Of a DNA stretch of 64,000 bases, positions 7,229-62,841 are shown piece by piece. Numbering within the stretch: the first letter of the stretch is position 1; each line of letters begins with the position of its first letter. The notes under the pieces were generated by a model. The model was not told where the DNA came from. It saw nothing but the letters and a program-made list of their open reading frames with translations, and made no database searches. The stretch spans positions 1 to 64,000 of the forward strand of contig MSJH02000539.1 in NCBI GenBank assembly GCA_001931875.2, in the 5' to 3' direction. The stretch comes from Byssochlamys sp. IMV 00236 (taxonomy: Eukaryota; Ascomycota; Eurotiomycetes; Eurotiales; Thermoascaceae). Made by a program: the position numbers and the translations under genes.

Positions 7229-9036
7229 TTAGCTACTCCCCGCCGTTTCCGTGCCCACCCGCTGTTCCGCTGCAATGCCCTTCCGCAGCGCCGCAGCCGC
7301 CTCGTGAATCGTGCAAGTCGCCCAGCGTGTATGCAGTACCAGCGACAGAGCAGGCAGTCTACGCAGTGTACGGCCGCTCAGCCCCTAGTGATAATGTGAG
7401 GAGACATCATCCCGTTAATTCCGGGGTATCCGCTGCGGTACTTACTTGACTGGCACTTGCAGCATCTGCAAGCTGCTTGGGAATAGAATCCGGGAACATC
7501 TGATACCTCAGCAGCATATCATCATATCCTGGAAGCAGCAGTACGTCTGCGTTCTGCTCGATGTATTCAAGGGGTGCACATATGTCGTCAGGAACGGTCT
7601 GTATCACATCGAATGCTTTCCCCTCGATGACACCGCATCTACTCAGGTCCTCCAGACAGCTCTTGTAAATTTCGTAAATAACTCTTGATGGCGGCTTTGG
7701 TATAAACTGTTTTATATCGACACGATCAAGAAACGCGTCGTCCTGGCAGTCACAATAAGGTTAGCAATTGACTATATACTATCAAAAACGGGTCCAAGCT
7801 TCCAGTCCTCTCACCAATGCTGCAATCAAGTTGCTCGTGCAGAGCACGACCACGTTCGGACGGTGTCTCAAGCGGTCCAGCGCTGTTAACAGCGCATTAA
7901 CTGCACGCATGGCATCAAACGGCTCATTCCCCTGGAGAGCTTGCTCCCTTTTGGCTGTCAGTGTCTCGACTTCGTCCACAAAGACACAGGCCAGTGTATC
8001 CTCTTCTTCCTCCAGCATAGACTCGATATGATCGAACATCTTGCTTACAAGCTTTCCGCTCTCGCCGAAATATTTACTGGCTAACGAGTGGGCATTTATC
8101 TCAATCAACCTGCTCTGCGGGAATTGCTTTCCGAGTCGAATTGCAAGTTTCTGAGCAAGGGCACGACTGCAGTCCTTGATCAGCTACTCCTTGGACTATA
8201 CTTGCAGAAATGCAGTCTGGCAGTACTGACCATAGACTTGTCTTTCCTGTGCCTGGAGGTCCCCAGAGGAGAACGAGGCGATTCCAATTGATCGTCCATG
8301 CGTCTAAACGACGAGCGGACATTGAAACTGTGCTGTTAGTCTTGACAAGAAAAACCGGGACTCGAGTACTAACCCATGCGGCTAAGTGCTCGTAGCAGAG
8401 TCGATGGAATCTTTTGTTCAAACAATAGACTGGAGATCCAAAATTAACATATTATCAATCCCACAGTGCAGTGATACGTACGACTCCCAGATACCGTCCA
8501 ACTCTTTATTCGGCAGAGCAACAACTCTAGCTTGAGGCCCTGTATCCTCTCCGTTATCTCCTAGTCTCATAGTTTGTTGAGAACTCTCCAGTTCTGCGGA
8601 GCCTCGAAGCTGGTACGCCTGCACATCCAGCTGGACATCCTCCAAGCGGTAGGCACCTGATTCGAGTTGGCCTCCAGTGCACTCAATAATCTTGATGGAA
8701 TCCAGAACTTGAGCGTGTGATTCCCTGAGGTCATCTGCGCGGAGTTGTAAGGAATAAACTCCTCAGTTCAAGAAGAGCAGTGCCCCTACCGAACGAGCGT
8801 AGCTCCTGGCCCAAAGACAGCACTGCAAAGTTCTCGACCAGCCATTTACTGATCTCTTCCCTAATCTGAATGCTCGTAAGTGTCATGACACAGGGAATGG
8901 TATCGTGCTAGAGAAGACCCACGACGTCTGTACGGATAATGACATTCTCTCCATCGCTCTTGACGCGAGCTTCTACGTGGAGGATTGGTTTAGAAATGTC
9001 TCCAGTTAACAGCGAGGTACAGGAAATTGAAGGCAT
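7229..9036 (-). CDS. PCH2: Pachytene checkpoint AAA+ ATPase Pch2/TRIP13 (8 exons)
   Basis: Exons 9036-8923, 8865-8790, 8734-8482, 8429-8374, 8327-8231, 8166-7815, 7742-7446 and 7384-7229 all join in phase to 466 residues. Walker A GPPGTGKT is at 189-196. LIEINAHSLASKYFGESGKL follows, then Walker B VFVDEVE (Asp263, Glu264), sensor-1 VVLCTSN and the arginine-finger region LDRVDIKQF. The C-terminal lid includes GLSGRTLRRLP. The N-terminal 130 residues form the adaptor/HORMA-engaging domain. Pch2 remodels HORMA proteins on meiotic chromosomes and Mad2 in the checkpoint. No stop or frameshift was found after splicing, so the gene looks functional. The 3' intron ends and the 46-nt intron at 8373-8328 are the least certain points. 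Confidence 0.93.
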
Positions 9037-39600: not shown

Positions 39601-42331
39601 TCAGCCTAGAAACTCGCCGTCTGCGAGTGCGATCCACGGCAAGTCCTCTGCCCAACAGCGTTGCATAAGTGTGCGTGCATTTTGGACCTGAAGCAAAATT
39701 CAAGTCAATAAAAAGGAAATAGACAGTAGTAACAAGCGACGACAGCTACAACCTACCTGCTTTAGACCTGCTATCTCCATGCCCTTGATCCTGTCCAGAA
39801 TTTCTAGCCGCTCTAGCGGATCCTGCGTTTCACAACCAGCTGTGAATATGGGAAAGATGACTGACATTTCAGGGGGGCTTCCAATGGGGACTTTTCTCAG
39901 GACGCCAAAGAGTTCTTTTAAACACGCGTGGAATTCTGGACTAGATGGCGACGTATTGAGAACTCGACGGTGTAGATGTACCATCGCGGCCCAGTGGAAG
40001 GCTTGATCGATAGAAATAGCCTCCACACTTTCCACGTCTTCATCGTGCGCTCCTCGAATCTTGCCGTACTCTCGGAGCTCCTGCATGTCGTGTAGTAAGC
40101 TTTCTGCAGCTAGGACAATATCCGGGGAAGGTCCCCAATCTGCGAGAAATCTTCCTGTCTCATCGAAGCGTTCATTATCGCAGCGGTGGGTAAGATCACC
40201 TAAACGAGAGAGGAACGATTGTGTGACTGGAGTGAAGCCCATGAAACAATCGACCTGGAATTTCGTTTCTTCCTCAATGCTTGAGCCAGGAATGGGTGAA
40301 GACCAGCATTCGCCGCCAAAGAGAGGAGGGTCACTGTGCCGGCAAGATAGCCCTCCAAATATGTCAAGATACGTGATCCATCGCGAAAGGAATATGGCTA
40401 TCTTGTTCCCCAGACGGGCTAGTCGATGTTCTTCTCGCGCTACAAAGAGATCGCGCGCCAATTTCAGATGGCTCTGCCAAGGAATTGGGACCTCGAACGT
40501 GCTTGGTGAAACGATCTTCAGGGAGAGCAACATGATAGCTGTTGCCAGATGGCTATCCGTGACATTCTCTTGAGGATCGTTCAGGGCCTGCCGCAAGGTT
40601 GGGAAGACATCACTGACCCAGTGTGCGATTCGATTCGCTGGCTCGGGATGCTGCAGATATCTTGCACGATGACTGGCAGAGTACGCCAAAAGAAGATTCA
40701 ACAGATTAGGGTCACTCACAGCCACTATTATAGGTTAGCCAAAGCGCAGTACCCCAGGGATATTGTACTTACTCGAAGGCAAAACAGACACAAACGGATT
40801 TTCCGAGCAGTGGTGTGGCACAAGTATACGCGCAGTGTGGTTCAGAAAATGATGAAAATACATTAGATTGATCGGATTCTCGAGGAGTGCAGATGGCAGA
40901 GGAGATAAGTATCTCGGTATATTGACTGGAACTGGTTGCCTGTAATAGTCACCTTTGATAACAGTATCATTTCCCGGAGTGGATATCGTTTGCGGTGATT
41001 GTACTTGTAGGCTACCCTCCGTTTGTTCCTCTGGGTTCGCATGCTTGAGAGCAGCGATGTCGTCATTCTTGTTGAGATCATGGTCAGGATAGCCATAGTC
41101 GTATCCATAACTGTCAGCAGCACGAAGTGTGCCGCTGTCCGGCTTCAACTCATCCCCAGCACTCGCGCGAAGGGCATTGGTCTCAGAATCTGGTTCCGCA
41201 GAATGAGATAATAAGGAGTGGACAGATACACGCCGCAGGGCTGTTGAGCCATCAATTAAAGCAAAAGACTTGCTGAGGCTATTGGTATAAACATCGCCGG
41301 ATACCCCTGAAAGGCTTGCAGGTGATAGGGGGGTACACTGATGTCGCCGCTCACCAGAACGTATATCAGACTTACTTCCCTGGAGAACTGGTCTGTCACC
41401 AATGCTGGCCGGACTGTCTATCAGCGAGACGATTTTGTTCTCGTCGTACCCTGGAAAAGACGAGAAAGGATAACTGGAAAGTCGTATGCGCTTGGCAGAA
41501 TACTCTGAGCCTCTGTCATCGCCGATAGAGGGGCTCTCTTGCGTGTCGGGCTGCGCATTCCACGATTGGCGAAGAAATGACGTGGGCTGAGAGACAAACC
41601 TTCCACTAATACTGAACGGTGACATGCGGGGACAGTTGGTTTCGTGGATGTCTATGTTGAATGGTTGGTCGTATACTGCACAAGAGTGTGTTGCCTCAGA
41701 TGGTTCGACCATTCCCTGCCAAAGTCCGCCAGGCGGAGTAGCATCCTGTCCAGTCCAGTCACTGGCAGCGCTTGGAGGTTCTTGATTAGACGCGCTCAAT
41801 AGATCGCCATCAGGCTGATCATCTCTTCCAAAAGTGGCAATCGTAGCTGTTGAAACATGCTGCGAGTGTGGCCTGGATACTGCATTTTGTTCTGGGTTAT
41901 TTGACCCCTGGACGTCCAGAGAGATCGACGATTGTCCCTGGTGATCGGACGCAGAAAATACCTGGAATGACTGCGGTATTTGGTGCTCGAATGAAACTAC
42001 ACTAGAAACGGGGCTATAGGACTGAAATCCAATAGGTTTCTTCTTGGTCCTCCCTTCCCAGTTCAGGCGGATACTGTAGTCGCAGGTCTCACCTTGTCGT
42101 TGACAATTAAGACAGGAAGGTTTTTCTTCGCCACTAGCAAATTGTCAATAGAGGACATTGTAGCCGTAATTATATAATTTACTCACCATTTAACCTTCCG
42201 TCCCTTACATGGCCTAATGGTTGAGTCAATTATCTGCACCAGTCATATTCAAACATATAGGAGCCTTACCAGCATCCGTTGCGGCTCCTCCGTTTGGGTT
42301 CGGGAGCACCTGGCCTCTTAGGGCGAGGCAT
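39601..42331 (-). CDS. Zn2Cys6 transcription factor, acr-2-like (5 exons)
   Basis: Exons 42331-42270, 42213-42187 (27 nt), 42133-40773, 40724-39757 and 39687-39601 give 834 residues. The binuclear zinc cluster is exact: Cys20, Cys23, Cys30, Cys37, Cys40 and Cys47, split by two introns. The following CDYSIRLNWEGR block is shared with acr-2-like fungal regulators. A long Ser/Pro-rich low-complexity middle (60-440) precedes a fungal-specific factor helical domain (about 450-800: LLNLLLAYSASHRARYL, HWAAMVHLHRRVLN). Expected to bind DNA in the nucleus; the target is unknown. Its divergent neighbour is the FAR-17a gene, and no biosynthetic cluster is adjacent. Confidence 0.9.
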
Positions 42332-42989: not shown

Positions 42990-44052
42990 ATGGCATCGTC
43001 AAAAGCTTCTGAGTCGCTCATTAACAAGCATCCTCTCCAGAGACTGCCAAGTCCCTCGAGAGGTGTTTCTGCTATTGTTCATGTCCGTCGGCTATAAACT
43101 TAACCTTTACTCGACCCGTGGCTGACTCTCGTACAGTGGACTGGTCTTGCAAGCTTTATATGGTCTTTTAATTTGTGAGTTGTGCAGATAGAGATAAATG
43201 AAATGGACTTTCGCTCACATAACGAATAGTATGATCGAGAATCCAAACCATGCGTGAGTACACTGCTGCCTGCTCTGGAGGGACAATCCGTTAACCTCAG
43301 TAGGAACGAGGCATACGGTTGGCATTTTCAATATTTGACTGTTATTGGCCTTACGCTGGCGACAGTCACCTTCGCGATCGGTCTCCTTGCCGATATAACG
43401 CTCTCTCCGCGATTGTTTCTGGCAAAAAATCTTCTTTCGATCTGCAGTACTCCTCTGGAAGTGCTCATTAGCATTCTGTACTGGGGTCTCCGTTTGGTTT
43501 GTAACCCGTCTCTATCCATGAGGCAGTTTCTTACGATCTTCAGATTGATACACGCTTGGTTATCCCAGACTGGGCATATATTCCTCTCAATGCCGGTGAG
43601 TACCCTTCCAGTCAGCGTAGGTGATTTTGCTAACTCTAGCGTAGATCTTAGCTTTCACGCGGTGCCCGCCATTGTGATGCTGATCGACCTACTATTGCTT
43701 TCGCCTCCTTGGACCATCACAATCTTCCCAGCTATCGGGTTGTCAAGCACTATCGCCTTTGGCTATTGGTTTTGGATAGAGAGATGCTACGCACACAATG
43801 GATGGTATGAGAGGCCTCGTTCAGAGTGTGAACGTGGGTGGGACACCGTATGCTAACATAAACAGGTACCCGTATCCCATCTTCGAGCGGTTGCCCACTG
43901 AAGGCCGGATTGGTCTGTTCGCTCTTAGCGCTGTGGTAATGGCATTCAGCACTAGCACATTGAAGTGGCTCTATGGTCGGGTCAATGGATATGGCACGTC
44001 TACCCGCGCGACTTCTCGACCCGGAGCTGTCAAACAGAATGGCGGTCTGTAG
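42990..44052 (+). CDS. FAR-17a/AIG1-like integral membrane protein (7 exons)
   Basis: Exons 42990-43082, 43137-43174, 43230-43253, 43301-43496, 43544-43595, 43645-43804 and 43866-44052 give 249 residues. Each junction restores family sequence: FNFMIENPNHARNEAYGWH, LRLIDTRLVIPDWAYIPL, HNGWYPYPIFERLP. Six hydrophobic segments fit the FAR-17a/AIG1 fold. Human AIG1 and ADTRP are Thr/His hydrolases of fatty acid esters of hydroxy fatty acids; DLSFHAVPAI supplies the conserved His. The catalytic Thr is probably in the first helical half, but I could not assign it firmly. ER or plasma-membrane location is inferred. Confidence 0.9.
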
Positions 44053-50490: not shown

Positions 50491-51764
50491 CTAAGAACGT
50501 AGTCGTTGTCTCTCCGCCTGCAGATAGTTACCAAATCTCCAGGATGTAAGACAGAAACTACATGTCATGACCGCAAGTATGGTCTTTAACTCTTTTCCGG
50601 GGTCTCCAGCAATACAGGTATATGCAAATAACGGAACGGCGAACGAGGCTGCAAAAAGAGCAAGTATAATGTAAGCGAGAGTCTTGTCCATCGCAGACTG
50701 AAGCGCCTAGGCAAGCGTTAATAACTCGAAAATAGTATAGCATTGTATACCGATACAAAAGCTTGAACTCACGGGCGGCCAATAGGCAGGGTTCGTAAGG
50801 TCCTCTATAGGATGCGAAATAGCATGGTAATCGGGCCAATATCTGTGATGAGATCTTTGTTGCTTCCGAAGTTCCCAGAGCACGGATCCCTTGATTCTTC
50901 ACAGTCAGTGTCCCCGGAAAGAGCTCTATAAATCACAATGGGCCATCTAACCTCATATATCTGACGCAAACCGGTGCGGCTCAGTAACCTATTCCGTTGC
51001 CGAAGGCATATGACATGCCATTCAGCAATGACCAGGATCCACTATTGAAAGAGTAAATATTCAATCATGTTAAAAATTGGTAGGTAGGAACATACACCTA
51101 TAGGACTCGAAGGCTCTCTCCGCCGTTTAACAAAGTCATAGGCCTCGCTCAACGTGAGATAGTCTGGCTCTTCTTTGCTACTCTCGGAGAATAGCCTCTC
51201 AAAGACCTCTTCTTGGAATCGACCTTCGGCATCGAACAAGGTATGCCCCCAAAGTTGGAGCAGCTACTTCCACAACTTTAGCCTGAATTAAAACACGTAG
51301 ATAGGTAAAGAAGATGCGGACCAAAGCTTTTACGACCGTCCCGAAATATATGGCCAGAAATGGATCAATTCGGCCTCGCGTGGCCAGACTAGTCGGTAAT
51401 GACATAGCCATGTGCATCGAAGTTGCAATCAAAAAAGAGAAAAGAGTGTTAAAACCGAGATCATGAAAGGCCACGAAGCTATCGAACAGTGAGACACGAC
51501 TATCATCATCTCGATCGAAAAACGTCAAATAACGTTGCAATGAGCTCTGGCTCAATAGTCAGAGAACTGTTATCTTCAGAATAAAGCTAGCAGACCTACA
51601 TCCCGTGCAACTTTGGGTAGCGTATTGAACGCCTCGATTTCAGCAGTGTCTTGCAAGTTCCGACGTCTAGCATCATTCTCAACGTAAATGGCAGGGAGGC
51701 GCTTTTGTGTCACAGAACTATTGGGAACGCAAACCGCAAAGTCTAGCATAGTGGACTTTTCCAT
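50491..51764 (-). CDS. Divergent caleosin with C-terminal membrane extension (6 exons)
   Basis: Exons 51764-51600, 51546-51322, 51263-51096, 51041-50952, 50889-50773 and 50706-50491 give 326 residues. The caleosin EF-hand is at 66-77 (DRDDDSRVSLFD), followed by the hydrophobic hairpin that inserts into lipid droplets. Two conserved haem-region histidines are altered. QQHVxFWD has become QRYLTFFD (Tyr61), and KAKHGSG has become KALLLQLWGH, so peroxygenase activity may be lost. Exons 5-6 add a tail with two likely helices (LAYIILALFAASFAVPLFAY and LKTILAVMTCSFCLTSW) not found in the neighbouring copies. Exon 2 has 75 codons, as in the other two. The second intron is the least certain junction. 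Confidence 0.8.
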
Positions 51765-52322
51765 AGTCTCAAAGTCTAATAAAGTCTTTCTGTTTGGAGA
51801 GAATATCAGCTAGAGAGTCTCCAGAGGCACAATATCTCAATAAATGCCTTAAGTTGTCTCACTAGGTACAGCTAGCTGCACGTGAGGTATACATGACGTG
51901 TTTGGTTTCCTGCCGAAAGTTCCAGTGATAGAAGTTTTGTATTTCTCAACATTATCGAGTTCCCTAAGTTCATATATTATTCAAGGACCTGTGGTCTACT
52001 ATGGCAGGACATTCCCAACCAAGAAGTTCTCGCTCCTCTCCCGTTTCAAACTTCTACTGATAAAGAATTACCCCAGAAAAATAGGTCCAAATCAAACAAC
52101 TCAAAGATTATCTGAGCGTGTCCATGCGCTATCCATGAGTAGGATGGCTAGCTTTGTTGCAACAAGTCCGATATGTCTGGTTCACGATGCGGAGGAATAA
52201 ATGCCACCTCTGCGCTTACGAGAGTACTATACAGCCCTCCAGATTTTGAGTTTTGCTAAATAGTGTTTTCGTGTCCCAGCAATAACGCAAAAAGCCACTG
52301 CATCCTGCCTCTCTGTCCCTTC
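51765..52322. other. Intergenic between caleosins 1 and 2
   Basis: About 0.56 kb, promoter side of caleosin 1. A plus-strand frame at 51898-52200 shows no domain. Confidence 0.5.
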
Positions 52323-53352
52323 CTAGGTAACCTTAACGGATCCAATAAATCCATCACCTCCTAGGCCAAAACCCTGGCGCCAACCTTCTGCTTTTAATCG
52401 CTTGTCGCGAATCTTCCAGAATAGTGACCCCTACAGGAAAGCAATTAGTTACGAATTGGATAGAAAGACCTTACTACTCACGTCATAGACCTGTCCCAGG
52501 TCTTCCTTGTAGACCATTCCACCTTTCTGAAGCAATAGCCAGGTTGTCCCCCATTCGAAGAAGGCTGCTCCCCACTATATGGTATGTGTCTTTTTAATTC
52601 TTTTTTCTTTTGGTTGAGGGGGTGGTCCTCAGGACATAATGTAGTCGGTCACTTACACCAAACGGGTCAGCAGCGACTCTCTGCCCTTTCATCATGCGAA
52701 AGATGTCGGCAAGACTCAAGCAACCGCGATTTTCCCTGTCGTACTTGGCAAAGATATTCTCAAATGCCTGCGAAACGAAATGTCCCTCGTTATCAATTGC
52801 GCCGCTGCCTGAACCGTGCTGAGAGCAAATCGAGAGTTAAAAAAAGTGCTTTGTCGTGGTGTACTTATTCTCGCTAACCTTTGCCTTGTGGATACTAGGC
52901 ACATAGACTCTGAAGAAAGGATCAGGGAACCACGAATACGCAAGCCTGGTCGGATATGAAAAATTGAGATTTATGACCAGAACTGCCAGAAGAGAGAATA
53001 TGATATTAAATCCTAGTTCCCTAAAGCCGATATATGTATCGATGGGTGTAATCTGGCCATCGTTATCCCGGTCCCAGAAGAGTACGTGTTGCTGCAGAAG
53101 TGTCTAACCTCGCAAATGGTAATGTTAGTGACGTTTCAGTCTTGAAGGGGGCACCAGTCCAGAACTCACATAATCTTCGTACTTATGCGAGTCTTTCGGG
53201 GAACCTCGCGGACTATCTATAGATGGTCCCAGGTTTCCGTGCGCCCCAGTAGGAAGATTAACGTGGTTGTCGATATCAACTGCTAACGGTCTGGACTGTG
53301 TTACTGTCGCTTTGGGAACTGCGATTTCGAAGGCTGAATTGCCGTTCTGCAT
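52323..53352 (-). CDS. Caleosin (peroxygenase family, 5 exons)
   Basis: Exons 53352-53170, 53103-52879, 52818-52657, 52574-52482 and 52430-52323 give 256 residues. His67 (LLQQHVLFWD) and His137 (KAKHGSGSG) match the two haem-coordinating positions of plant caleosin peroxygenases. The EF-hand loop is 72-83 (DRDNDGQITPID). A hydrophobic hairpin with a proline-type knot follows (LLAVLVINLNFSYPTRLAY). WGAAFFEWGTTWLLL and GSLFWKI complete the C-terminal domain. Caleosins sit on lipid droplets or ER and use hydroperoxides to epoxidise or hydroxylate unsaturated fatty acids. Divergent from the fusion gene at 53912, sharing a 559-bp promoter. Confidence 0.93.
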
Positions 53353-53911
53353 AGTGGAAAAGGAAGTAATTACCCGAAGGCAAGGGGATTATTGGCAAGG
53401 TTCTCTGTCTAAATGTATGTTAACTTCTCACAGCAATATTAAGCGTTTCTTTCATTTAGATAGATACGTACTCCTTTTGGGCGTCGAATTCAGTGTGGAA
53501 GACCTGGACAGCAATCCGGGACCGTATTTAGAGAATGCAAGTCCAGTGGGCTACATTATGTAGTCTCGATACGATATTTGGTGGGACAGTTCGAAACCAT
53601 GGGGACATTATTGGTAAGGAAACCCAGAGGCATTTGCAAGGTGGCTTTGTTGAGATGGATTTCCCTGGCTATGTTGCAGCTGATCTGGAACTTTTCGAGT
53701 GAAAGTGCAGGGGTCTGTGGAAATCTCGGAAGGTGGTGAACTTATTCCCCAACATGATATCAACAATGCTCAACGACATCTCGGATCCCCATCCGCATTG
53801 CTACCTTGCAAGTTTTCTGCCGCCAGATCGGACCCGAAGCTATGTAAGCTTACAACAGACCAGATTTCAAGGAGAGAAACTTAATATCTGCTCTAAAGGG
53901 GGCTAGTGCAC
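53353..53911. promoter_or_regulatory. Shared divergent promoter of caleosins 2 and 3
   Basis: 559 bp separate two ATGs pointing away from each other, which allows co-regulation of both caleosin genes. No clear TATA pair or known zinc-cluster repeat was identified. Confidence 0.5.
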
Positions 53912-56826
53912 ATGGAGAGTGAGTTTGTTACAGTGCCATTCATTCTGCCCTATATAGCGCAGACAGAAACCGTGTATTGCGTCGCATCTACTTTCAGTCC
54001 AAGGCATCTAATGATGGAAATTGGTGCACCAAGAGGAGTACCTAAAGCAGGAGTCGCTCGAGCCAATCTTGCGGTGTCGAATGAGAACCCTTGCGGTTCT
54101 AAAGGACCTCACTACGAGAAATTCAAAGATTATGTATGTCAGCAGGAATCTGCCGTGCCTTGATACCTTGCAGCACACTCGCTAATACTAGATGAAAACG
54201 TGTAGAGCGTGTTACAGCAACATGTGATTTTCTGGGACCGGGATGGAGATGGCATCATTTGGCCCTTGGATACCTATCGAGGCTTCCGAGAGCTCGGCTT
54301 TAATATTCCATTTTCTATATTCGCGATAATGGTCATCAATGGTGGTTTCTCCTATCCGACACGCCTCGCGCATAGCGTGATTCCAGACCCTTTTTTCCGA
54401 GTCTACCTGGACAGTATTCATAAAGCCAAAGTAGGTGTTACAAAAGTCTATTCTTATGTCGTCTTGATACCAGAAGCTGATGCGCTGACTTGCTACGGTT
54501 TCTTTTATCGGACTAGCATGCATCAGATAGCAACGTCTATGACCACGAAGGGCGGTTTGTAGCTCAAAGTTTTGAGAATCTGTTCGCGAAATTCAGCAGC
54601 CCTGGTGCCAACGATCTCTCTCTTAAGCAGATATTTAATCTGATGAGTGGTAACCGATGTGCCGTCGATCCTTATGGGGTATGTTGTTTTCTATCACGCA
54701 ATTGATAACGGTGAAAAGCTGGCTGACGTTGAATAGTGGTCTGCTGCTTTCTTCGAATTCGGAACCACTTGGATACTGCTCCAGAGAAATGGCAAAGTCC
54801 AGAAGGAAGATCTCCGCCAGCTATATGATGTAGGTTATATGCTTTGAAACGAAAATCGCCTTCTTAGTATTTACTTTCGCTTACAGGAAGGTACTCGCAG
54901 GGGTCACTCTTCTGGAGAATAGCCCAGGAACGGTCTCGAGGAACAGGATGGTCCCAAGGCTGGGGTCTCGGTGGCGATGGTTTCTGGGGATCAAAAAAGC
55001 GGAAACCGCCTTTGCTTATCAGGCTGGTGGGGAATGCTTTCAAGGCCCTGTTTCGTCTCACTTTTATCATGACATTGGTGGGACCCCTGTTGATCTATGT
55101 GTACGACTGGATGGGAGCACCGTCTATTACATTTGGGCGGGGGGATCTACCTAATGTCATCAAGAGCGCATGGTACCCTCGAAAATGTCCACCTCACGGC
55201 GGAGAACTTTATATGCCGGAAACCACCATAGATGTTGCATCGATCGTTAAGAGTGGCCTTGACAGATGCCCGATCGCTCTAGGATCCAAAGAAGGTAGCG
55301 ATCAGCTCAGCATTCGTGCCTCAAGGCAACTCTACCATAGTACTGTGAAGTTTCCATGCGTTAATGTCAAAGCTGGGGATTGTGCTATGCAACTTGATAT
55401 GTCTCGCATGAGTGACGTGCTGTCATGGGACAAAGGGCGGAAAACGATCACTGTACAGCCGTCAATGGAGATGGACCACCTCATGGACACTATGCACGAA
55501 TTGGGAATGAGCATGCCTTCGGACTATATACCGATCTTTACGGGACTTACAGTCGGGGGAATGTTCTTAACGGGCGCCCATGGCAGTTCCACCGAAAGAC
55601 CATCGGCGTTCGGACACGCAATATCACGAATAACCTACGTGGACGGTCGAGGCGAAGTGCGCGAAGAAGATAACCCAACAAGGTGGATAGGGACTATGGG
55701 TCTTTTAGGGATTGTCACCGAGATGGAGATCCAAGGGACGGAAATGTACAAGCTTAACACCACTGTGAGTCGCAAAAAGTACCTATTTCACACAATGCCT
55801 TATTAACATTTCTTACTACAGGTGGTTAAGGAATCAGATCGACGACTTCCAGAAAGAATTGCCATGCTTGTGAGGGAACCCTCGTTTGCACGAGTGATGT
55901 GGTATCCCAATGCACGTACGGCCATTGTCCGATGGCATACATCTGTGCCTCCTGATACCCCAGGGGATGCTTTTCACAGCTTCTTCGAACACCGTCCGTG
56001 GGCTGCTATTGGTGGAAAGTTCTCGCTCGCTATCGATCAGATCAACTTCACGCCGCTGCCCACCGACTGGGGAATTTGCTTTTTTGAGCAGCGTCCTCCT
56101 CCATTCTGGTACAAGGAAGGTGAGATTGGACACTGGAAGATATTTAATCAAAGCATTATCGGGTGGCCACATCGCCTAGGGGGCTCTAGCTGTAGGGGTC
56201 GTCTCTCGGGATGCTACTGGCAGAATCAAGTGCAGATTCTGGTTGAGTTTGATATGGATGTCCGGTACCTCGGAGACTGGATTCGAGAAGTCCGCGCGAT
56301 CACTGATCTTATCCCTCATCAAGGATGTCTGCCATCGCTCCTAGGTTTCGCCATGCGGTTTGGAAAAGGTTCGGACGCCCCACTCGACATGGCCTACGGG
56401 AGAGACACGGTCTACATAGACATGCTTGTCTCGAAGGGCCTTGCAGGTCTTCCTGCCCACCACCAAGACATTTTGGACGAGATAGAGCAGATTACATTCT
56501 GTAAATACGGCGCCCGAGCGCACTGGGGCAAGAATCCACAACGAGCCTTTCTTCACCCTGAATGTCCTATGAAAGACAAGTATCCGGAACTGGAAAACTT
56601 CCTGGACACGGCACGTCAACAGGACCCTCGAGGAATTTTTGTACCGCCGCTGTTTCGTAAGGTTATGGAGGAGTCTGAATATAGCTATTACCCTGGTTGT
56701 GCAAGCTCGATGGATTGTTATTGCAGGGAAGATGTGCATTGTGGGCCATCGATCCTCTATAAATGTGACAAGGGGCGGCACTCACAGGCTGCTAAAGTCT
56801 GTCGGCAGAGATTTCAGCGCTATTAG
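53912..56826 (+). CDS. Caleosin fused to aldonolactone-oxidase-like FAD protein (6 exons)
   Basis: Exons 53912-54133, 54206-54430, 54517-54678, 54737-54829, 54901-55764 and 55822-56826 give 856 residues. Residues 75-265 are a complete caleosin: His80, EF-hand 85-96 (DRDGDGIIWPLD), His150 after KAK, GSLFW and the GWGLGGDGF end. With no stop codon the frame runs through a membrane-type helix (about 275-300) into an FAD_binding_4 domain (about 325-500; GAHGSS at 459-464). The ALO-type C-terminal domain follows, with HWGK at 756-759, and a Cys-rich tail. Aldonolactone oxidases usually reduce O2 to H2O2, a caleosin oxidant. The usual GHS FAD loop is replaced by GSKEGS. A separate FAD gene from ATG 55069 is the alternative. 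Confidence 0.82.
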
Positions 56827-57378
56827 CATCGGATTCTACATTTTGTGAAACAACTATGTGCGATATGAAGAGATAAATAAAGGGAAACTAAACTTGAGAC
56901 ATTGTATTATTCGGAGGCAATGTCACTAAGGAGCTATACCGCGATCTAATGCAGAAAATATCGGAGACTCCTTGGGGGTTCCTGGCCGAGGTCTACACCT
57001 TTGCCTCAGTGCGCTTCATCCACGCATGGGGACAATTACCATCAGCTTGCTAGAGAACCCAAGTACGAGGAAGCTTCGGCCTGCCAGAAGAAAACAAGTA
57101 CAATGTCCAGGCGGCACAAGATCATGCTGACATCATGGTTGAAGCCTTCCATTTCCAAGTTGATAAGTAACCTGTTCTCGAACTTCGGATATTCTTCCGG
57201 GATATGATATAGGCACGACGGTATTCGTCAGTGAGCAATGCTAGGGTCAAGGATAGTCAATTTCGCTGGGATAAAATCTAGAGCATTAACTGCTGAACCG
57301 TCATGATTCGACACGAATATCGACTTGAAACTGTCTACATCTTTGAGACAGTCTGTCCTGGGCAAAATCATTTCTTAT
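56827..57378. other. Intergenic, fusion gene / SDR
   Basis: 552 bp between two plus-strand genes. It holds the possible relic listed separately and the SDR promoter. Confidence 0.4.
56888..57190 (+). pseudogene. Possible gene relic with one in-frame stop
   Basis: One frame has coding-like composition on both sides of a single TAG near 57050. Before it comes DIVLFGGNVTKELYRDL, then ETPWGFLAEVYTFASVRF; after it comes LPEENKYNVQAAQDHADIMV, ending at a TAA near 57190. The family was not recognised. It may be the remains of an eighth cluster gene, or chance. Confidence 0.25.
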
Positions 57379-58434
57379 ATGATCTATCCATTCACAATGT
57401 CTACCAAATTCCTGGGACATGGTCCTGAACAAAATACGCTCCTTTCTTGGATCTTCTCATACTTCAGCAGTTTTTATTTTGGTCTTTTGTTCCTCTACAG
57501 ACAATTATTCGTCGAGCCTCCTTATCCCATCATCTACTGGACTGGGAAAACAGTAATTGTTACCGGTTCCAGTGGAGGGCTTGGATTGGAAGCAGCAACA
57601 CACTTCGTGCGATTAGGGGCCCAGCGAGTAATCATCACTGCACGAGATGACGAGAAAGGCAAGCAGGCGCGAAGGATAATTGAATCAATCACTGGGCGCC
57701 ACGATGTTGTTGAGTGCTGGGGTCTGGAGCTTAGTTCATCCGACTCTGTCAAGAACTTTGTGAACAGGGCAAATTGTCTTGACAGATTAGATGCAGTTGT
57801 ATGTAACGCTGCTGTGGCAACTCCGACTTTCAGACTAGTCGATAGGGACGAGACCACCATAACTGCCAATGTGATCAACACTTTCCTCCTCGCCTTTATG
57901 TTGTTGCCGAGCCTGAAGAAAACATCACGAAATCATGGGACCGTTGCTCATTTATCGTTCGTCTGCAGCGAGGTCATCTTCCATACCTCACTCACGGAGC
58001 TGGAAGCACCCAATATCCTGGGGGCGCTTCGAGAGAAGAGGACAGCCTACATGTTGAGGAGATACCATATCAGTAAAGTCATGGCTGCTATGATAGTCCG
58101 CGAGTATTTTGCGAGACATCAAGACCACGACGAAGTCGTGGTCAATTATGTCAATCCCGGACTATGCCACTCGAATCTTCTCCGGGAGTTGCCCACGCCT
58201 ACCTATATAATCAAGACCCTTCTAGCGCGCACCGCGGAGGTTGGAAGCAGAACGTTGGTGCATGCTACCTGTGCAGGGAGAGAGTCACACGGTCAATATT
58301 TGAGTGATTCGGAGATACGTGCACCACCATATATCCTTTGCAGCAAGAGGGGGGTTGAGCTTCAGCGGAGATTGTGGGATGAACTTATGGATCACTGGAC
58401 CGAGATCCAGCCCGAAATACGACAATATGTTTAA
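57379..58434 (+). CDS. Membrane-anchored short-chain dehydrogenase/reductase
   Basis: Single exon, 351 residues from ATG 57379 (an alternative ATG is at 57397). An N-terminal helix (LLSWIFSYFSSFYFGLLFLY, about 23-42) precedes a Rossmann fold: TGSSGGLG at 62-69, the acidic LELSSSDSVKNF region and VCNAAV in place of NNAG. The catalytic YHISK (Tyr229, Lys233) follows, with a Ser in LSFVCS. The layout is that of retinol-dehydrogenase-like SDRs of ER and lipid droplets, which act on hydroxyl or keto lipids and sterols with NAD(P)(H). Arg52-type cofactor residues (ITARDDEKGK) favour NADP. Placed between the caleosin-oxidase fusion and the monooxygenase, it is a likely partner in lipid oxidation. 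Confidence 0.88.
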   Translation: MIYPFTMSTKFLGHGPEQNTLLSWIFSYFSSFYFGLLFLYRQLFVEPPYPIIYWTGKTVIVTGSSGGLGLEAATHFVRLGAQRVIITARDDEKGKQARRIIESITGRHDVVECWGLELSSSDSVKNFVNRANCLDRLDAVVCNAAVATPTFRLVDRDETTITANVINTFLLAFMLLPSLKKTSRNHGTVAHLSFVCSEVIFHTSLTELEAPNILGALREKRTAYMLRRYHISKVMAAMIVREYFARHQDHDEVVVNYVNPGLCHSNLLRELPTPTYIIKTLLARTAEVGSRTLVHATCAGRESHGQYLSDSEIRAPPYILCSKRGVELQRRLWDELMDHWTEIQPEIRQYV

Positions 58435-58833
58435 ACCCGCAGGGGCTTGTTCCTATTCTTAATGTGATCTTTCTTTTGATAACTGTAACTTGTCTTGTTT
58501 TCTCCTTAGCATGTTAGAGGAGCTCCAGTGCCTTAACTTCTCCAATAGATGCTACGAGAAGCAGTGGAGCGTTGTATCTATGGACTACAACGTCGTACTG
58601 TCACAAAATCCTCTCATTACATTGATATAGGCGTTCATCTGTCGAATTATTTTACAATGCATTTCAGACCGAAAAATCCTTCCCATTCGAGCTATCCATA
58701 ATCGCCCACTGCTGTTCCCTTCGATGATGGGATTTTAGATACAGCCCCAATCGGCAGTATGTTCTTAGACAACCACCTTGATGTAGACTAGATCCTGATT
58801 TTGGCATTTTCTGAGCAGAAGAATTCGGAGTGA
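58435..58833. other. Intergenic, convergent 3' ends
   Basis: About 0.4 kb between the SDR and monooxygenase 3' ends; nothing recognised. Confidence 0.5.
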
Positions 58834-60651
58834 TTAGGCGTCTTTCTTTGCTGCTTCTTGCTTCTCTTCCTGACCTTCCTGACTGTGGGTATCTGCGAAT
58901 GGCGGTTCTTCTTTCAGATTCTTCATCCTTGGTTGCCCTTTCGGCATATTCGATGCCAGAGCAGCGGAATAAGTTGGCTTGTTGTCGGTTTCGGAATGCT
59001 TCTCATTATCCTTAGATCCTTGGTCGTTGGACCCTGATTTGGTGCTGCCATTGATGATCAAATTTTCCCTTCCAGCATTATTGGCTGGGATACTTCCCCA
59101 TCCCCATAGGACAAAGAAGACCCATCTCCATCTCCACGGGTTCGAGAATATATTGAATATTATCCACCATATCAGTTCGCTATAGGTAAAGAACTCGAGT
59201 GCGCCACCTGGAGCGGCCCTTTTGCACATACGCGTCCAGTCGACCCAGATGCGCATCCAGGGTGTCGATGGACGTGTCTTTGGATCCACCAGAAACATCA
59301 AAAGCAACCTCGTATACAGGCCTATGTGAATATTTCCCACGGTGCCGATCCCATTGATGTACGTGCAGTTGTTGGCACAAATATCTGTATGGCCAACTGG
59401 AAAGGTTTGGAGAAACCAGTTCGGCGGCTTGTAAGGTTCCTTGAAGGCATCATCTGGCAGAAATCCCAGACTGGGTCTATGAAAACCTGTAGCCATGATG
59501 CAGATATCGCCCTTCACGGTAATGTCCTCTCCGGGTCCGCCTTTAGGAACACCTTTGGCGCGATGGTTGAAAACTAGTCCCGATTCCGCGAACTCTTTGA
59601 TGTCACCGCGCAGCCACTTAACCTTCCCTTTACGCACCTCTTCCAAGATGTCATTGTTGACCATGGGCGTATCTGTGTATAGGCCTCTTCCAGTGGGGAT
59701 CAGGTCTTCCAAATCTCGGTAGAAGAATTGCTTCAACAGTATTTCGGGCACCCAAGCAAACTCGGTTTCTTCGCCAAAAATGTTAAGAGACAGCAGAGCG
59801 TCGATAAGTGGGTTTCGTGGTATGACCCATTTATTCGACTATCGTGACCTGTCAGCGCTTGACAATTCTCTCGATTTGCCAGGTAATGATAATATACATA
59901 CCCTAGCCAGTATTGTCGTCTGCGCTGCGCCATTTTGTACTGCAAACTCAACAGCCTCAACAGCACTAGAACCACCTCCGACGACAATGACGTTTTTGCC
60001 TCTCACATCCTTACCCGCGAGTTGAGAGGAGTGGTAGATCTGGCCTGAAAAGTTCTCTTGGCCAGGTATATGTGGTGCTTTAGGGTCTCCGCAAGTACCG
60101 ACAGCAGCGATAACGCCGTCAAAATAGCCATAGGAAGGATCTTGGACAATCCATCTCCCGGTCTTTTCATCTTTCCAGACAGATTGGACCGAAACCTCGA
60201 ACTCAGTTCGCTCATCAAGTCTATATCTCTTCCACAAATCCGTAACCTCTCTGATGATGGCGTCGCGGTGGGGATAATCGTTCTTGAACCTCACAGAAGG
60301 ATGGAAGCGGTACATGAGGCTATGGATTTGCAAAGATGATGTTGGGTTTACTTGCTGTGAACGATATCCCATTAGCTCTCTTGATCCCTATAATAATTCT
60401 TCAGATGAACTCACACTCCAGATACCCCCCAGATGATCTCTCCCCTTTGCTTCAAAGATTGTGACCTCAAATCCATGACCAACACAATGTGCAGCAGATG
60501 AAACACCAGTAATCCCTGCGCCAATAACAGCAACACGGCGCGCATTACTGATCCTTCTCCGAGGTGCTGGAGGAGTAGGGGAGAAGAACTTTGAAACAAA
60601 AAACTGGATCACTTGGTAGACCAACGATATAATATAGTTTAAGAGGCCCAT
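58834..60651 (-). CDS. Flavin-containing monooxygenase (3 exons)
   Basis: Exons 60651-60415, 60354-59902 and 59838-58834 give 564 residues. An N-terminal hydrophobic segment (LLNYIISLVYQVIQFFVSKF) anchors it. GAGITG (44-49) binds FAD. FSGQIYHS (181-188) matches the FxGxxxHS fingerprint of FMO-type enzymes, GGGSSA (about 206-211) binds NADPH, and IMATGF is the family's late motif. No Trp follows the fingerprint His, so it is nearer FMO than classical Baeyer-Villiger enzymes. A second aromatic membrane patch (WWIIFNIFSNPWRWRWVFFV) and a charged tail follow. Start 60651 is preferred over an upstream extension. The substrate is unknown, possibly a lipid given its neighbours. Confidence 0.9.
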
Positions 60652-61609
60652 CTTGCAGTTCTGAAATGAATCAATGGACCGGAGATTGTGAGCCTGAAAC
60701 CATGGTAGGGCGCATCGATTCCCCAGGCCAGCTTTCTTATACTTATTCAAAATTTAAAATATGGCGACGTCATTTGTGCAAAACGCACATCCTTCGATAA
60801 GGCATGTCACTTTCACATTATTGAACATGTAACTAAACCGTAGTAACTAGCCCGAGACACCCGATCGAACCCCAGTGTGGGAGCTGTGATTTTGTGGTGT
60901 GCGTACCTGGGAGCTTCCAATTCGCATTTAATGCACACGGTACCTATGTCTGCTTACTAGAGTTGGGACGTTCCGATTAACTACTTCGTATAGATTGGAG
61001 GATAAGGATCCGGGGCTGGAACCAGCTTCTCGTGTATTCAAGAACAGGATGTTGGCCAAGCATCAACTTGATAGATCCTCCGAACTTCCCGGCCCACAGA
61101 GCAGCGATGTGATGTCACACATCCTCACTTTAGATTTACAACATCTGATATGGTCTGAGAGAACATCCTGGATATTCATGAGAAGTCATGGCTATGGTAT
61201 TGAGTAAAACTTAATGAAATGAGGCCTGTGGATCCAGGTCGGTTATTCCATGGATATATACTCCAGCCGTTCCTTTGCACTGCTCGCTTACCTATGTGTA
61301 TCTTCCCATCGCTTTTTTTGGTGTAGGTCACTTACCTGTTCAAACAGTTTAGGCTTATATTTGAGGAATCACTCTCGGGGGGTTTTTTTTTTCTTATCTT
61401 TTTTGTGGCTACATGACAACTTCCTTCACAAAGGAGAAGGTACACTGGGAGGTAATGGACTACTCCATAGCAAGCGTGAATCGACTACCATTTTATAAGA
61501 TCTGTCGAAGCTTTTGTTCATACTAGAATAAGAATGTCAGAAAACAGTTCTATGTCATTCGGCGTCTGCCGCTTTCCTTCATACACTCAATATCGTTGCG
61601 TTCCACAAG
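60652..61609. other. Intergenic
   Basis: About 0.96 kb between two minus-strand genes. T-rich tract at 61383-61403. No supported gene. Confidence 0.5.
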
Positions 61610-62841
61610 TCACAGAAACTCCAATTCTCCCTTTCTATCCTTCGCATATATATCCTTCCATTTGTCCCACAGGCGTCGTAACTCATCCATGTAGGCTTGA
61701 TGGACATGATCAACATACTCAGGATCAGGTTCTTCTTGACGCACAATGTTCACTGGCTCCCCAACAACTACATTAACGGGCTTCTGATAAGGCAAAAAGC
61801 CGCGACCGCCACCCAAAATACTGCGTCCGTAGAATATCGGCAATGTCCACCGCAAGGACTGCTTCAGTATTGATTGCAGTCGCTTGATTGAAGGATAGTG
61901 ATCGGCTTCGACTTGGTCATATAGGTCGTTTTCACCGAACCCGAGAACAGGAACGAGGTCGGCCCCTTGTTCTACAGCGAGCTTCACAAAGCCTTTGCGT
62001 CCTCGAATGATGATTCGCATTGTGCCTGGCTTCGCGAGGAGGGATTCGCGCGCTCCCCCAACCGCAATTGTTATTGCACGGCCAGCTCCGTTGCCGTCAT
62101 GGCCGCCAGATGATAGCAAGCGCCTGCAGGAGCTGCGCGACACTCCTCCGAGACCGGTGGACAGGATATACTCCCGATAGAATGGGACCTTGAAGTTTGT
62201 GTCCAGTGTGAGGAGTGCGTTGGTAATTCCTGGAAATAGCTTGGAAAAGCCTAACGCCTCGGTTGCAAATGCTGCGAAAGCACCATGACAGATTATGCCG
62301 TGGGGATGATACGCGAATATATATTTGCGTCTTGGAGATAGCAAAGTGGTGCGGCGCAGCTTGCACGGAAAGTAGGATGCAAAGGCCCTCAAGATGCGTG
62401 AACGACGGACGTTCTCGCTTCGACGCCAGAGGTTTCCGGAACATCCATCATTCGATTTCAGTATCCAGAAGATATAAAATAGCATCAACGGCAGAGTAAG
62501 TGGGCATAGACAGAAGACAATCGTTCCCGCAAGACTCAGAATGGCACTTAAAGCATGGAGTATATGTGCCGCCAATTCCAAGGGGCTAGCATGACGCTTG
62601 TCAATATTGCTAGAAGAGATCAGTAATCGCAATACTCCGAGAAATGCAGAGGTTCTTGCCTGAGATCGGAAAGCATGTATCCGGTTTGGAGTTCCTTTAT
62701 TGTTTCGGGCTCTTCTTCGGACAGCGGACTTGGAACATAATGCTGGATTTCGGCAGCGTGAATGTTTGTTCGATCCTTTTCAAGGAAAGTGCCCGCCGAT
62801 ATTCCTGTCTCTTGCTGCGAAAATTGAACTATCGATTCCAT
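61610..62841 (-). CDS. DGAT2-family acyltransferase (2 exons)
   Basis: Exons 62841-62636 and 62585-61610 give 393 residues. The second exon has no ATG of its own, and a 50-nt intron (GTATTG..CTAG) joins it in phase to an acidic N-terminus. Two membrane helices (about 74-110) precede the HPHG motif at 162-165 (FAYHPHGIICHG). Then come KVPFYREY, RKGFVKLAVEQGADLVPVLG, GFGE and GRGFLPYQKPVNVVVGEP, all typical of DGAT2. It would acylate diacylglycerol, a wax alcohol or another lipid hydroxyl at the ER or lipid droplet, the same surface that caleosins coat. The amino-terminal exon is less certain than the catalytic part. Confidence 0.86.

Follow-up and report, generated by a model that had tools for sequence, protein, structure and literature searches.

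A caleosin joined in frame to a GulLO-type flavin oxidoreductase in Byssochlamys sp. IMV 00236

Introduction

Enzymes resembling either half of the gene described here are known as separate proteins. Among fungal caleosin peroxygenases, that of Aspergillus flavus (AfPXG) has a complete PF05042 domain, an EF-hand loop, two haem histidines and a hydrophobic segment, and the available text on an A. flavus caleosin calls His85 essential for haem binding and activity (PMC5808235). The role of the pair of haem-coordinating histidines is treated in the accessible part of a rice study, where H2O2 can serve OsPXG9 as an oxygen donor when hydroxy fatty acids are the substrate (PMC12295067). According to the same part, its kcat/Km was lower for H2O2 than for cumene hydroperoxide and the product abundance higher, the highest efficiency was reached with hydroperoxy fatty acids, and plain oleic, linoleic or linolenic acid gave no product with either oxidant. 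Caleosins have been reported to bind microsomes and lipid droplets, and their binding to bilayers has been described as "via a transmembrane domain".

On the flavin side, classical GULO and ALO carry Gly at the gatekeeper position and make H2O2, as stated in the available portion of PMC11099136. The available sections of a review give Gly or Pro at this position as the sign of an oxidase and Ala as that of a dehydrogenase, apart from a few exceptions (PMC11505616). One of the enzymes covered there, AtGulLO5 (Arabidopsis GULLO5), has Pro and yet no oxidase activity, and is reported to act exclusively as a dehydrogenase; for rat GULO an orientation towards the ER lumen is reported. The nectar enzyme MsGulLO is described in the accessible text of PMC6077269 as having weak oxidase activity, as a proposed H2O2 maker and as flavin-less. 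A limited literature search, including the available part of PMC11218257, found no described fusion between a caleosin and a flavin oxidase.

Results

We analyzed a window of 64,000 nucleotides (the whole stretch of DNA under study, to which all positions refer) from Byssochlamys sp. IMV 00236. Six exons at 53912-56826 on the plus strand are spliced into one frame of 856 amino acids that runs from a caleosin into an oxidase without a stop. All five introns are of the GT...AG type and measure 57-86 bases. The features of this gene and of its surroundings are:

51042..51809, minus strand: third, diverged caleosin, its exon structure partly worked out
52326-53352, minus strand: neighbouring separate caleosin, five exons, of which exons 2-4 (225, 162 and 93 bases) match those of the fusion
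53912..54133, plus strand: exon 1 of the fusion gene, caleosin N-terminus, from the spliced frame
54206..54430, plus strand: exon 2, first haem histidine H80 (base 54221), EF-hand loop DRDGDG (from base 54236) and hydrophobic segment (residues 104-122)
54517..54678, plus strand: exon 3, second haem histidine H150 (base 54517), from the alignment
54737..54829, plus strand: exon 4, caleosin, 93 bases as in the neighbouring caleosin
54901..55764, plus strand: exon 5, first part, caleosin end (GDGF, base 54973), basic linker (base 54994) and predicted membrane helix (about residues 283-301)
54901..55764, plus strand: exon 5, second part, FAD_binding_4, candidate flavin histidine His380 (base 55336) and gatekeeper Pro445 (base 55531)
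55822..56826, plus strand: exon 6, ALO domain, HWGK (base 56521), Cys-rich GULLO2-like tail and stop
57307..58431, plus strand: short-chain dehydrogenase (SDR) open frame
58837-59838, minus strand: frame taken as the FMO continuation by position only, with no Pfam or NCBIfam match
59842..60753, minus strand: pieces of an FMO-like flavin monooxygenase
61613..62779, minus strand: DGAT2-type diacylglycerol acyltransferase open frame

In the spliced protein the caleosin domain (PF05042) matches residues 73-242 over positions 2-170 of the 170 of the profile (234.1 bits, above the cut-off). FAD_binding_4 was found at 396-488 (profile 45-136 of 139, 39.9 bits) and ALO at 660-801 (profile 125-256 of 258, 66.5 bits), both over their cut-offs. 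The original prediction had spoken of a full oxidase with these two domains; both are there, but Pfam matches parts of the two profiles and the word "full" has to be dropped. GULLO2-like_3rd follows at 813-851 (32.8 bits against a cut-off of 27), and HWGK starts at residue 756, just where it had been placed before. The fusion of caleosin and oxidase is thus confirmed at the level of sequence. The start codon is uncertain, the public model of a close relative (P0001, see below) beginning at Met35 of the window protein (base 54014).

As in AfPXG, both haem histidines and the EF-hand loop are intact in the alignment of the fusion. The expectation that a caleosin should end shortly after GDGF proved right for the two intact separate paralogues, which stop seven residues later: the neighbouring one ends GDGF-IGSVKVT-stop and another, on contig C800, GDGF-FGATKVA-stop. 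In contrast, the fusion continues past this point as GDGFWGSKKRK, followed by the helix and the oxidase (about 590 further residues). Since they share the exon lengths 225, 162 and 93, the fusion caleosin and its neighbour look like paralogues. In the third caleosin the first haem histidine is seemingly replaced (LQRY) and the EF loop altered, as judged by eye.

At this level, the main argument for the fusion is that the join is conserved in two other proteins. A whole-protein search over about 5.8 billion proteins produced 6,500 candidates, with two matches, P0001 and P0002. P0001, a hypothetical protein of Paecilomyces variotii DTO217A2 (806 aa), carries caleosin, ALO and FAD_binding_4 and is 99% identical to the window protein over 90% of the query; it stands for 30 sequences clustered at 90% identity, this member being the one examined. 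P0002 (652 aa, 60% identical) covers the last caleosin exon only, not the earlier ones, and continues from it in frame into the oxidase. It has in common with the window protein the tail GDGFWG(S/P)K(K/R)R, at the place where separate caleosins stop; the linker sequence has diverged between them, with frame and helix kept. P0002 looks like an unspliced open frame, because the Gln that precedes GSLFW is compatible with a CAG splice end and the site of the last intron of the window gene is occupied by 24 additional residues. Beyond its first two residues, P0002 has no Met before residue 176, which already lies inside the FAD domain. As there is no Met in the linker, the P0002 oxidase could not start there alone, barring a further 5' exon. 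Homologues that always keep the two domains in separate genes would have spoken against the original prediction; instead, P0001 is a fusion, and in P0002 the stretch between the domains is free of Met. The openness of the linker (192 bases) is by itself weak evidence, because 3.5% of 5,000 base shuffles left it open as well.

A second search used the caleosin part, with a length range of about 443-1410 aa for the proteins admitted, and led from 682 candidates to 12 matches, of which P0001 alone combines caleosin and ALO. P0002, holding the last caleosin exon only, is absent from them. Among the best candidates scored in the own assembly, neither the oxidase half nor the join was found a second time.

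Two candidates were set aside. P0012 (A. insuetus), with caleosin and FAD_binding_4, was considered as a third fusion, but its FAD fragment is a different one, the order is reversed, the caleosin is incomplete and a sub-threshold NACHT_N match lies in between, so it is probably a bad gene model. A separate oxidase gene starting at Met291 (base 55069) was judged unlikely, P0002 having no Met there.

Other caleosin combinations were also observed, which are either real fusions or gene-model errors: in P0003 (Astraeus odoratus) the caleosin stands behind a fatty acid desaturase, and in P0004 and P0010 (Fusarium) before HET-E type domains.

A tree was built from 59 of the 131 proteins. In it P0001, P0002 and P0014 (Penicillium cinerascens, 407 aa, a shortened model of the same oxidase) form one clade (100/100), with P0001 and P0002 together inside it (99/82). 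Together with P0021, which sits on a very long branch, this clade groups with plant GulLO and P0016 (96/94); its exact placement is uncertain because of the long branches. The public model of P0001 seems mis-spliced at its 3' end (after FRK; window 56668-56845) and so to lose the Cys-rich tail, since the window protein, P0002 and P0014 all keep it.

Plant GulLO (TIGR01677) and the fusion have in common FAD_binding_4, ALO, HWGK, a Pro gatekeeper and the Cys-rich GULLO2-like tail, which is recognizable in the alignment. The GULLO2-like match of P0002 is just under the cut-off of 27 (25.9 bits). The two differ in that the fusion is only about 25% identical to the plant enzymes and has a caleosin in front, where plant GulLO has a signal peptide. 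The best NCBIfam model for P0001 and P0002, the two proteins covered by the scan, was TIGR01677 (pln_FAD_oxido, plant FAD oxidoreductase), with 134 and 148 bits, far below the curated cut-off of 383.1. By these scores the fusion oxidase is a distant relative and not a member of this subfamily.

Its catalytic signatures are kept, namely HWGK, the gatekeeper Pro and the candidate flavin histidine. The gatekeeper, Pro445, at the position that governs the use of oxygen, is Pro in 10 of 11 aligned rows (YTPYWLGLTVGG in the fusion versus YIPIFTGLTVGG in plant GulLO). It lies at the same distance before GG as Ala113 in GalDH; phmmer instead pairs Ala113 with the neighbouring Ile. His380, the candidate for the flavin-binding histidine, is His in 9 of the 10 rows with letters there, and falls in a stretch outside the Pfam match. 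Because the studied GulLOs disagree on H2O2 production, the label of "H2O2-class" given in the original prediction is a possible one for this oxidase.

The classical fungal D-arabinono-1,4-lactone oxidase, of which the assembly has a copy on contig C789, belongs to the same superfamily and shares the HWxK motif with the fusion. The C789 copy differs from the fusion by GSGHS, a Gly gatekeeper (NLGSI) and HWAK, and in the same search PF04030 gave 290 bits for the C789 protein and 55 for the fusion. Another ALO is found on the short contig C566. With these two in the assembly a housekeeping ALO function of the fusion was judged unlikely, and the fusion probably does another job.

The positive-inside rule orients membrane helices by their flanking charges. 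The linker helix (hydropathy moderate in the window protein, 1.92, and 2.44 in P0002) is flanked by +6/-1 before and +2/-2 after; in P0002 the values are +7/0 and +2/0. Applied to this basic N-flank, the rule predicts a cytosolic caleosin and a lumenal oxidase. We also looked for signal-peptide-like N-termini, by a measure of our own (a hydrophobic 12-residue stretch within the first 45 residues). They were present in 32 of 37 Met-starting relatives among the 41 examined in P0015-P0055, a set that holds many near-duplicate plant proteins, and in 7 of 75 beginning with M or V among the 76 of P0056-P0131, largely bacterial or metagenomic by their labels. The helix of the fusion aligns where these signal-peptide-like segments stand. 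Three N-glycosylation motifs in the oxidase half are also present in P0002 and P0014; the placement of all three sequons in this half carries little weight by itself (about 0.27 by length). A position of the oxidase in the ER lumen, opposite the caleosin, is suggested by the helix with its basic N-flank, by the Cys-rich tail and by the way in which the relatives start, with signal-peptide-like segments.

The description of caleosins as binding bilayers through a transmembrane domain speaks against this topology: if their hydrophobic segment (residues 104-122 in the fusion) crosses the membrane once, the oxidase would be cytosolic. A single crossing would, however, part the two haem histidines: His80 and His150 stand on either side of the segment, and if both bind one haem the segment must be a hairpin, which would leave the whole caleosin on one side of the membrane. 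Droplet monolayers should not accommodate proteins that have a folded domain in the lumen, and the predicted ER anchor argues against a lipid-droplet location.

The surroundings of the gene in the window (51042-62779), with two more caleosins, the SDR, the FMO and DGAT2, fit lipid chemistry. Further away are a FAR-17a/AIG1-like gene (43230-43853, plus strand), two fungal transcription factor domains and, downstream, a GMC oxidoreductase (the remaining positions being 39703-40734, minus strand, and, on L023, 5381-6019, plus strand, and 8046-8867, minus strand). These genes are possibly part of a larger lipid or metabolite cluster.

Discussion

The reading that we favour, with moderate confidence, is that one gene gives an ER-anchored oxidoreductase with two heads, which carry out separate catalytic steps on the two sides of the membrane. 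The N-terminal caleosin head, of the haem peroxygenase type, would sit at ER-droplet contacts or on the ER surface that faces the cytosol. Acting as a signal anchor, the linker helix would replace the signal peptide of the separate relatives, and the join may have been made through this former signal peptide. The C-terminal GulLO-type flavin head would be in the ER lumen, with disulphide bonds and probably glycans. Most likely the two heads would run separate steps of one oxidised-lipid pathway, which has the SDR, the FMO and DGAT2 as gene neighbours, with no closed peroxide relay between the heads. The sequence shows the frame, the exons, the domains, the conserved join and the catalytic signatures, whereas topology, location, substrates and pathway are inferred. 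If the heads do work apart, the gene would clearly exemplify the joining of a cytosolic lipid enzyme to a secretory-pathway oxidase. The readings that compete with this one are not mutually exclusive, and our confidence in them overlaps.

Closest to it, and overlapping with it, is the somewhat improbable case that the flavin half is a dehydrogenase passing its electrons to a different acceptor, and that the lipid hydroperoxides used by the caleosin come from another source. AtGulLO5, reported as an exclusive dehydrogenase in the available sections of PMC11505616, is a precedent for the first part, and the preference of OsPXG9 for hydroperoxy fatty acids (PMC12295067, accessible text) for the second. 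Against it, MsGulLO has weak oxidase activity in the available text of PMC6077269, and the gatekeeper Pro does not predict a dehydrogenase under the review's rule.

The original prediction went beyond the in-frame fusion and the catalytic signatures, both of which stand, to a droplet-bound peroxygenase that would be self-sufficient, its oxidase forming H2O2 from O2 and its caleosin, in the same chain, spending this H2O2 to oxygenate lipid. Both halves keep their signatures, the gatekeeper is one of the two residues that mark oxidases, and OsPXG9 takes H2O2 with hydroxy fatty acids, giving more product than with cumene hydroperoxide. However, the GulLO type includes AtGulLO5, without oxidase activity despite its Pro, and OsPXG9 works less efficiently with H2O2, prefers hydroperoxy fatty acids and, in the available text, gave no product with plain ones. 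Besides, a closed peroxide circuit on a droplet is disfavoured because the oxidase is predicted to be lumenal and the caleosin cytosolic, so that the heads would be on opposite sides and the protein would be a misfit for the droplet monolayer. We consider a self-sufficient enzyme unlikely, and find the droplet version, as it was written, unsupported. It is similarly doubtful that the GulLO head makes H2O2 for lipid oxygenation by the caleosin in some other arrangement, side by side or across the ER membrane; in the latter case, peroxide would link lumenal sugar-lactone oxidation to cytosolic oxylipin synthesis. If the heads cooperate, nature would offer in this protein a model of how a peroxygenase can be provided with its own oxidant.

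The caleosin half might also serve mainly to anchor the oxidase at ER or droplet membranes, its haem chemistry being unneeded. The binding of caleosins to microsomes and lipid droplets makes this conceivable, and together with the helix the caleosin would be a plausible targeting device. The conservation of both haem histidines and of the EF-hand loop in the fusion points the other way, as does the third caleosin, which seems to be without the first histidine and suggests that loss may be tolerated where catalysis is unneeded; we regard an anchor function alone as improbable.

That the gene model is an artefact, two adjacent genes whose frames were joined by chance, could draw on the 3.5% of open shuffles, on Met291 as a possible oxidase start and on the faulty look of P0012, but is very hard to maintain when P0002 keeps the join and the shared tail at 60% identity and, with no Met until residue 176, could be a separate gene only if another exon, lying further 5', were spliced into the linker.

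For P. variotii, transformation and targeted gene disruption are reported in the available parts of published work, which makes tests of the fusion practical. The contig of the window (C538) has 102840 bases. The assembly itself amounts to 47.4 Mb in 840 contigs, and that of P. variotii CBS 101075 to about 30.1 Mb; the former may be mixed or belong to another species.
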